DNA from: Candidatus Bathyarchaeota archaeon
Lineage (GTDB): Archaea; Thermoproteota; Bathyarchaeia; Bathyarchaeales; SOJC01
Reading direction: 5' to 3'
DNA length: 34,323 nt
Assembly (NCBI GenBank): GCA_020352645.1
Contig: CP070683.1
Coordinates: forward strand, 1,437,222-1,471,544
This document shows positions 29,134 through 31,510 of the stretch, piece by piece (the first letter of the stretch is position 1; each line of letters opens with the position of its first letter). Position numbers and translations under genes: made by a program. The notes below the pieces were generated by a model that was not told the DNA's origin, made no database searches, and saw only the letters and a list, made by a program, of their open reading frames with translations.

Positions 29134-29258
29134 TACAGACCCCAACTACCAACCTACGAAATTTAAGGGTTACCAACAGATTATCTGCACTAGCTAGATG
29201 CACAACGTACACATCTCAAGGAATTGACGCGCCAAATATGGTTTTCTGCATGTACCGA

Positions 29259-29270
29259 ACATTTAAACAG
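29259..29270 (+). promoter_or_regulatory. TATA box of the NrdD-like regulator gene
   Basis: ACATTTAAACAG predicts a start near 29291, 21 nt before ATG 29312. No SD is seen before that ATG. Confidence 0.5.
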
Positions 29271-29311: not shown

Positions 29312-31420
29312 ATGTCGAAACCAAAGCTTCCAACTATACACAAGGCAGGCATTCGAGTACTGAAAGCGATTTCCGCATCCATTCGAATACAGATACTTAG
29401 TCTCCTTCTGGAACGAGGTGCCATGTCCTACACTGAAATAATGAATTTCTTGAAGCTCAATGTGACGCGTGATGCAGGGCGTTTTGCATATCATCTGAAA
29501 TTCCTGCTAGGTGCAGATCTCATTGAGCCAGACTCAGAAACCAAGAAATATCGTCTGACTGATCTGGGCAGACGCATCATCGAGATTACAGACGAAATAG
29601 AGAGAAAGACTTACAAACGCAGAAAAATGCTGGTTCGAACATCCCGCTTCACTATGGAGGAATTTGACCGAAACAGAATCAGCCAATCTCTAGTAAGAGA
29701 AGCTAATGTCCCCACCGATTTAGCACAGAAAGTTGCTCGTGAGACAGAGAAGAGATTGCAAAGGTTCAAAACCAAATACCTGACCGCCCCTCTTATTCGA
29801 GAAATTGTGAACGCTATTCTTCTTGAGAAGCATTATGAAGACTATCGCCACAGACTCACTCGGCTAGGCTTACCCGTTTATGACGTCACACAACTAATCG
29901 AAACGCGCCTACCAACGGTGGAAGCTATTCACAAAGAAGCAGGAAACGCAGTCATGGAGGAATACGCACTTCTAAGTATACTGCCCAGAAATGTCTCGGA
30001 TGCTCACCTGAACGGAAGCATCAACCTCCACAACCTAGGAACTTGGGTGTTAAAACCGAATGAAATCACGCATAATCTTCAATATTTCTTCCAAGATCAA
30101 AAACCCAAGTCGTTCGAGGCAGCTCTGACTATCACAAACAGAACAATCCAAGATTTCGCGAAAGAAACCTCCGGGCAGCAAAACCTTGAGAAATTCATCA
30201 GCCATTTAGCTCCATATGGAAAAGATACTCCTCCAAGCAAGATCAAAGAGCTATTGAGACTCTTTATCCAAGCCATGAACCAAGTATCACCCATCCCTAT
30301 AACCATGAGTTTAGAGTTCTCGCCTGAAGAGAACGATCCTTATTCCTCCGAAACATTCCGACTGACATTACTATTGTTGGAAGCATTGATGGAAGAAAAT
30401 CGAGCACACCCTCTGCAAAACCCTAAAGTGATAATCAAAGTAAGGCAAGAACAAGGGAAAACTACCGAGATAGAACCGCTCTTTCACGAAGTACACAAAC
30501 TCGCCGCAACAAGCCTTCTTGTGTATTTCGCCAACTTGTGCCCCAAGAATCAAGCGAATGCAACATACACGTCTTCAGGCCTAAGACTTTCGGATGACTG
30601 GTACGGAGACCGGGAGCTTGACACACAGAGAACAGGAAACCTTGACACAATTGCAATCAACCTGCCAAGGATTTCCTTCGAAGCGAAGGGCGACGAAAGC
30701 AGGTTCTTTGAACTTCTAGAGAGCCAGCTCAACATTGCCAAGCAAGCTCTGGAGATCAAATTCAAAACTATGAAGAAGCGCATTGAACAAGACCTGTTGC
30801 CCCGTCTGACACAAAAGACTAACGGGGATGAATATTTCAGGTTGAAAAATGCAACCAGAACGGTGGTTATTTCTGGGCTAAAGGAAGCAGTCAATGCATT
30901 GTTGGCGGGGAAGGAAGAATCAGAAGGAAACGCAGAAACTTCCAGTCTGGCTGTTAGTATTCTTGAATATATAAACCAATATACATCCAAACATACTAGG
31001 AAACCTCAGACTCGACTAACTTCTGCGATAGTCAACCTCGGATCTACGGCGGAGAGACTCGCAGAACTAGATGTTGAAAGATATGGGTGGGGAATTGCCA
31101 AGACGCGGGGAACAAAAGAACACCCCCACTATTCAGATATAAGCACTGTAAGCCTCGATAGAATGGAGCAACTTCATATTGAGGAGAGAATACATCAACT
31201 GACCCCTGGAGGTCACCTAGCCATAGTGGAGAATGAACAGGCAGAGCTATCAGTAGAGGATCTTCAAGTCAGGACACGCCGACTTGCAGCGAGCGAACTA
31301 GGTCTATTCTGTTACAAGCTTTCTCTGACGTTCTGCAGTCATTGTAAGAAAACGTCATCTGGGACTCATCTGAAATGCCCTGAATGTGGTTCCACAAACA
31401 TCGTATCCTTTAAGAACTAA
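29312..31420 (+). CDS. Winged-helix/ATP-cone/NrdD-like fusion without catalytic residues; candidate RNR regulator
   Basis: Residues 10-95 form an ArsR-like winged helix (SASIRIQILSLLLERGAMSY, ending YRLTDLGRRII). Residues about 105-200 form an ATP-cone-like region, and the remainder is a full NrdD-like body ending in a zinc ribbon (C675, C678, C689, C692). It aligns along its length with the NrdD downstream (PLIRE, TRLGLP, DAHxxGxIxxH, INLPR, ExRLAxxDxxxxG). However, C175 of NrdD corresponds to E251 here, the NrdD pair CCRL becomes SGLRL near 422, and the protein stops before the glycyl-radical loop. Catalysis is therefore ruled out. I infer a nucleotide-sensing transcription factor for nrdD. 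The start is ATG 29312. It is 225 nt upstream of nrdD on the same strand. Confidence 0.85.
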   Translation: MSKPKLPTIHKAGIRVLKAISASIRIQILSLLLERGAMSYTEIMNFLKLNVTRDAGRFAYHLKFLLGADLIEPDSETKKYRLTDLGRRIIEITDEIERKTYKRRKMLVRTSRFTMEEFDRNRISQSLVREANVPTDLAQKVARETEKRLQRFKTKYLTAPLIREIVNAILLEKHYEDYRHRLTRLGLPVYDVTQLIETRLPTVEAIHKEAGNAVMEEYALLSILPRNVSDAHLNGSINLHNLGTWVLKPNEITHNLQYFFQDQKPKSFEAALTITNRTIQDFAKETSGQQNLEKFISHLAPYGKDTPPSKIKELLRLFIQAMNQVSPIPITMSLEFSPEENDPYSSETFRLTLLLLEALMEENRAHPLQNPKVIIKVRQEQGKTTEIEPLFHEVHKLAATSLLVYFANLCPKNQANATYTSSGLRLSDDWYGDRELDTQRTGNLDTIAINLPRISFEAKGDESRFFELLESQLNIAKQALEIKFKTMKKRIEQDLLPRLTQKTNGDEYFRLKNATRTVVISGLKEAVNALLAGKEESEGNAETSSLAVSILEYINQYTSKHTRKPQTRLTSAIVNLGSTAERLAELDVERYGWGIAKTRGTKEHPHYSDISTVSLDRMEQLHIEERIHQLTPGGHLAIVENEQAELSVEDLQVRTRRLAASELGLFCYKLSLTFCSHCKKTSSGTHLKCPECGSTNIVSFKN

Positions 31421-31453: not shown

Positions 31454-31510
31454 TTGACACTTCATGTCAATTTCGAAAGAATGAACTACAGAATTTTATA
31501 CAGTTCTTTC
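31454..31510 (+). promoter_or_regulatory. Two inverted repeats in the nrdD upstream region, candidate operators
   Basis: Repeat 1 is TTGACA-CTTCA-TGTCAA (31454-31470). Repeat 2 pairs GAATGAACT (31479-31487) with AGTTCTTTC (31502-31510), 8 of 9 positions. Its spacer holds a TATA-like AATTTTATAC. TATA-like elements also occur near 31515, 31551 and 31594; the last fits a transcription start near 31620, just before nrdD. The repeats could be bound by the upstream winged-helix fusion. Confidence 0.4.

Follow-up and report, generated by a model that had tools for sequence, protein, structure and literature searches.

Within the window analysed here, an archaeal DNA stretch of 34,323 nucleotides, a gene that we call R encodes a protein in which a winged helix and an ATP-cone precede a catalytically dead fold of NrdD, the class III (anaerobic) ribonucleotide reductase (RNR). 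We consider it likely that R is a pseudoenzyme transcription factor, which senses nucleotides and controls RNR genes in the role of NrdR. R has lost the catalytic residues but keeps the fold, the ATP-cone and the zinc ribbon; together with its relatives it forms a single clade and repeatedly adjoins genes for RNRs and dNTP metabolism. The supply of RNR must match DNA synthesis. Bacteria use NrdR, which is reported to be rare in archaea (PMC9110341, PMC12176259), and R is probably the missing sensor that switches archaeal RNR genes.

The open reading frame of R starts with ATG, encodes 702 amino acids and ends with TAA (Table 1). Its Pfam matches to the winged helix, the ATP-cone and the NRDD domain each exceed the curated cut-off. 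When aligned with the adjacent 700-residue NrdD by BLASTP, R shows 28% identity over 651 columns (E 2e-67) and the alignment begins at the ATP-cone. Used as a query against its own genome, R matches only itself and this NrdD. The structure prediction suggested in the initial annotation returned an AlphaFold2 model with a mean pLDDT of 83, and that of an orthologue from an ammonia oxidiser (family f17) reached 79; the best PDB matches of both models in Foldseek are class III RNRs. The profile of the R N-terminus gave only marginal matches against PDB sequences (HlyU, E 0.009; ribosomal protein eL14).

Table 1. Positions of R, nrdD and their associated elements in the window
Feature	Position	Strand	Evidence
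Likely BRE/TATA of the R gene, CCGAACATTTAAAC	29255-29268	+	Most members of the window's family have CCnnAACCTTTAAAC here; assignment inferred
R gene (winged helix, ATP-cone and catalytically dead NrdD fold)	29312-31420	+	ORF, orthologues, Pfam, AlphaFold2, Foldseek
Winged-helix domain, residues 16-91 (DUF7347, PF24038)	29357-29584	+	Pfam E 3e-8; weaker HTH_45/HTH_5
Predicted recognition helix, residues 55-67, within the nearly invariant DAGRFAYHLK	29474-29512	+	DSSP on the AlphaFold2 model; conservation
ATP-cone (PF03477), residues 106-178, variant VRTS instead of KRDG	29627-29845	+	Pfam E 2.5e-7
NrdD-like barrel (NRDD, PF13597), residues 202-696, without catalytic Cys, NxN flap and HxHD	29915-31399	+	Pfam E 4e-59
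Zinc ribbon, all four Cys kept (C675, C678, C689, C692)	31334-31387	+	Alignment
Candidate operator, perfect inverted repeat TTGACA-CTTCA-TGTCAA	31454-31470	.	Sole such repeat in the window
Conserved nrdD promoter block TGTCAATTT-n13-TACAGAATTTTATA, TATA-like stretch included	31465-31500	+	Pattern search
nrdD, intact class III RNR, 700 aa	31646-33748	+	Cys175, Cys384/385, RITGY radical Gly, NxN flap

The NCBIfam model of NrdD (TIGR02487) separates the two neighbours, as R scores 214 bits against a cut-off of 326 and does not reach it, while the adjacent NrdD scores 516.8 bits (cut-off 326.35). One other R protein (G036, L016:1396-3702), which is also dead, just reaches this cut-off with 326.4 bits, and automatic annotation could thus name it an active anaerobic RNR. 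Genes of the R type therefore risk being misread as anaerobic RNRs, even in aerobes. The genome hosting the window also encodes, elsewhere, a class II nrdJ and the activase gene nrdG2, which makes the adjacent NrdD a plausible working enzyme. Other NrdD-like genes were also noted: two loci of family f29 (L221 and L222) encode a 679-residue protein that is unusual in its C-terminal region, stays below the NrdD cut-off and has no ATP-cone match, and two further NrdD-like frames (G118:C199:2312-4135 and G350:C1:1470091-1470387) carry a single in-frame TAG each.

To characterize the loss of catalysis, we aligned 36 R with 32 NrdD proteins and surveyed individual residues. Cys175, Cys384 and Cys385 are present in all 32 NrdDs, and none of them is kept in any of the 36 R proteins; in the window, R has Glu at the position of Cys175 and TSSGLRLS in place of the Cys-Cys segment. 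In most R proteins, Ala, Thr, Asn or Ser takes the place of the radical glycine (motif RxxGY; Gly711 followed by Tyr712 in P. copri NrdD, PMC11226230), or the residue is absent. Two R proteins of family f18 (L059 and L060) retain a glycine at the radical site and lack the cysteines. The motifs through which NrdD handles its substrate (PMC11226230) have gone the same way, with the NxN flap lost and HxHD degraded. The four zinc cysteines are maintained in 34 to 35 of the 36 R proteins, and R in the window ends 10 residues after the last of them, where the glycyl-radical loop is absent.

What the initial annotation had observed in this gene holds, and its reading of the gene as a regulator is supported in part and now has a broader scope. 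The ORF, Pfam and BLASTP data agree with its description of a 702-residue NrdD-like protein with an added N-terminal winged helix, and the alignment bears out the change of C175 to E and of the CC pair to SG, as well as the end just past the zinc ribbon. Its proposal that R retains substrate sites has to be dropped because the HxHD and NxN motifs are lost. It had also raised the concerns that homologs might have an intact glycyl-radical loop and that a frameshift at 31420 might hide a catalytic C-terminus. No aligned R has such a loop, and a frameshifted or truncated gene was ruled out by the orthologues: R proteins of the window's family stop at approximately the same place, and distant members have a decayed stretch beyond the zinc ribbon, where the radical loop would be.

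Conservation is unevenly distributed along the protein. Over 32 R orthologues, the mean column identity is highest in the ATP-cone (0.83), followed by the winged helix (0.77) and the RNR part (0.55-0.66), and the recognition-helix pattern [DE][AS]G[KR]F(A/G)YHL is found in almost all of the phylum sample. These values bear on the idea that R is still an active enzyme with another chemistry. Although the barrel fold is predicted to be intact, this is highly improbable, since R has lost the catalytic cysteines, the radical glycine, the motif for the substrate triphosphate and the flap of the active site, with no conserved replacement seen there, and the barrel is less conserved than the ATP-cone and the winged helix.

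R is not a chance open reading frame, as 58 out of 61 genomes have matches, most of them full-length and with no internal stop. We extended to the phylum the genome search for the combined architecture that had been recommended at the outset. The profile of the R N-terminus matched 193 of 300 genomes at E < 1e-15; in 19 of these the best E-value exceeds 1e-40 and the match may be only an NrdD ATP-cone or a fragment, so that R is found in approximately 174 genomes of this phylum-wide sample. At the level of the class, matches occur in 107 of 151 genomes. Families f17, f46 and f49 are ammonia-oxidising archaea, since all their tested members encode archaeal AmoA, and the two f17 R proteins that we scanned show the winged helix, the ATP-cone and the NRDD domain above cut-off. 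R is widespread in Thermoproteota and also occurs in ammonia oxidisers, a group with cultured members, which makes the question of its regulatory role directly testable. The NrdJ of N. maritimus is Nmar_1627 (PMC4303638), and its R is therefore expected to be a neighbouring gene.

A maximum-likelihood tree built on the RNR part alone separates R from NrdD by one branch with 100% SH-aLRT support. The branching order inside R is unsure because the tree search was quick and some branches are long. The separation rules out a recent tandem duplication of nrdD in the window as the origin of R, and with it the initial view of R as a locally converted paralogue of its neighbour. Judged from the sequences, R is an old family that shares descent with NrdD.

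The neighbours of R point to its possible targets. In Bathyarchaeia, R precedes either nrdD or a glutaredoxin-nrdD pair. Most genomes of the window's family, and genomes of f2, f4, f6, f58 and f61, have R just before nrdD and on its strand, with a glutaredoxin-like gene between the two in f4 and f6. Among the ammonia oxidisers, R is directly upstream of the class II gene nrdJ, again on the same strand, in 34 out of 35 genomes, while the 35th has R and nrdJ on separate contigs. The probability of such a placement by chance is around 0.0016 per genome, although the genomes are related and do not represent independent counts. In f17, whose genomes carry class II nrdJ and have no NrdD among the matches listed, the gap between R and nrdJ is typically about 205 bp. 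Adjacency to nrdD and nrdJ therefore recurs, in line with the conserved RNR linkage on which the initial annotation had made its reading depend. We think it reasonably likely, if with somewhat more reserve than for R as a regulator, that R represents a phylum-wide archaeal counterpart of NrdR derived from a dead RNR, in which the allosteric machinery of the enzyme became the sensor, and that it controls the RNR genes of the class in use in each cell, including class II in ammonia oxidisers.

The association with RNR genes is not uniform. One genome of family f10, which belongs to the window's class, has R upstream of nrdJ and another does not, and R is not adjacent to an RNR gene in f5, f7, f8, f9 and f18. 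R is followed on the same strand by dcd, which encodes dCTP deaminase, in f48 and f52, and where no RNR gene is nearby it is often convergent with pyrB, with pyrI adjoining. R thus tracks RNR genes and other nucleotide-pathway genes of unrelated families, and its targets are probably not limited to nrdD, as it also adjoins nrdJ, dcd and pyrB/pyrI. The convergent or divergent arrangement with pyrB/pyrI in many families, the position of dcd in f48/f52 and the five families in which R is unlinked to RNR genes could even suggest a DNA-binding nucleotide sensor for nucleotide metabolism broadly (pyrBI, dcd and others), and not chiefly for RNR genes. This is unlikely, because convergent neighbours need no common regulation, R is more tightly linked to RNR genes, which are of two classes (34 of 35 ammonia oxidisers), and the sole footprint that we found is at nrdD.

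Two other arrangements around nrdD were observed. Family f7, which belongs to the window's order, has a bacterial-type NrdR gene directly before nrdD (L200:1221-1688; 154 bits with TIGR00244) and keeps R elsewhere in the genome, so that two RNR regulators, NrdR and R, may coexist there. Stretches similar to the L200 NrdR also end just before nrdD at nine other f7 loci (L105, L108, L110, L111, L114, L115, L117, L118 and L120). A glutaredoxin/NrdH-like gene precedes nrdD at L088:8185-8490, L090, L091 and L092, and similar sequences precede nrdD in f22, f34, f42 and f43; this position suggests a class III RNR that is reduced by glutaredoxin.

The gap between R and nrdD hosts the candidate operator TTGACA-n5-TGTCAA. 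Conservation of this gap in the window's family is concentrated in TGTYAATTT, which includes one half of the repeat, and in a TATA-like AATTTTATA further on. The pattern of the promoter block has one match per genome in 13 of the 61 genomes, always in the R-nrdD gap, and the reversed pattern used as control has none. The TGTYAATTT half is conserved in the promoters of f1 and f6, and in f6 the block precedes the glutaredoxin-nrdD pair. The left arm, TTGACA, is less perfect in other members of the window's family and is not clear in f6. Overall, the TGTYAATTT block was found only in genomes of the window's own order with a linked nrdD; inspection of the promoters of unlinked nrdJ and of f18 nrdD did not reveal it, and neither the unlinked nrdJ in the genome of the window nor the promoter of R itself showed the candidate operator. 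In the promoter of f17 nrdJ, a conserved TGTnAA element stands farther from the TATA-like box, and this core is all that the promoter has in common with the block of the window. A single operator common to the whole phylum is therefore not established.

These gaps also help to weigh the proposal that R is a pseudo-subunit, which would bind NrdD or NrdJ and tune its activity; the winged helix would then make contacts to proteins or bind DNA non-specifically. Pseudoenzymes frequently serve as allosteric partners, which in part favours this proposal, and R retains the full RNR fold in the predicted models and adjoins RNR genes. We nevertheless regard it as improbable: the R family as a whole adjoins RNRs of class II as well as class III, two groups with only a distant relationship, few stretches of the protein are as conserved as the predicted recognition helix, and the gaps of around 200 bp between R and nrd genes bear promoter-like conserved blocks.

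In the reading that we favour, a class III RNR gave up catalysis and acquired an N-terminal winged helix at an early stage within the Bathyarchaeia-Nitrososphaeria part of Thermoproteota. Most economically, it would have retained its allosteric body as a sensor without a working active site, with the winged helix relaying signals to RNR promoters. The presence of the ATP-cone suggests nucleotide sensing; this cone, possibly helped by the former specificity site in the dimer interface, would read the ATP/dNTP state, and a nucleotide-dependent change of oligomer could then reposition the winged helices. RNR transcription might be set by a dimer bound to a palindrome of the type TTGACA-n5-TGTCAA, which precedes the TATA-like element of nrdD. 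This placement of the candidate site tips the balance slightly towards R being an activator. In NrdR and most ATP-cones of RNRs, the phosphates face a Lys-Arg pair (PMC9110341, PMC11226230), and VRTS in the cone of R means that nucleotide binding is not assured, though the intact NrdD next to R shows this variant too. VRTS in place of KRDG was also observed in other intact archaeal NrdDs (L213 and L214).

Several known systems resemble R in part. NrdR also combines an ATP-cone with a DNA-binding domain and acts on, or lies beside, RNR genes of different classes (TIGR00244; PMC9110341, PMC12176259). R shares with it the ATP-cone and the position by RNR genes, but NrdR has 140-220 amino acids, binds DNA through an N-terminal zinc ribbon and has no RNR domain, whereas R carries a winged helix unrelated to that ribbon, together with a complete dead RNR. 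R is not a member of the NrdR family, since it has no match to TIGR00244 and does not show the order of N-terminal zinc ribbon and then cone. NrdD (TIGR02487, PF13597; PDB 9d3x, 8p23 and 1h7a) has the same fold, ATP-cone and zinc ribbon, while R differs in its winged helix and in the loss of the catalytic cysteines, the radical glycine, the NxN flap and HxHD. The N-terminal domain of R matches archaeal winged helices of the ArsR/HTH_45 type (PF24038, PF14947, PF01022); the remainder of R is unrelated to these proteins, and metal sensing is not implied.

We found no description of the R architecture, in agreement with the initial annotation, nor of any enzyme-type regulator derived from an RNR, in the open-access papers searched; a general archaeal RNR regulator was not found described either. 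The closest precedents for the design are regulators made from other enzymes. MocR/GabR proteins consist of a winged helix and an aminotransferase fold, and Bacillus PurR of a winged helix and a phosphoribosyltransferase fold. Like R, in which Pfam matches and active-site residues indicate a winged helix fused to a dead enzyme fold, they carry a DNA-binding head on a former enzyme, which in their case now senses a metabolite. If R works in the same way, it would clearly exemplify how a transcription factor can take over the allosteric body of an enzyme as its sensor.
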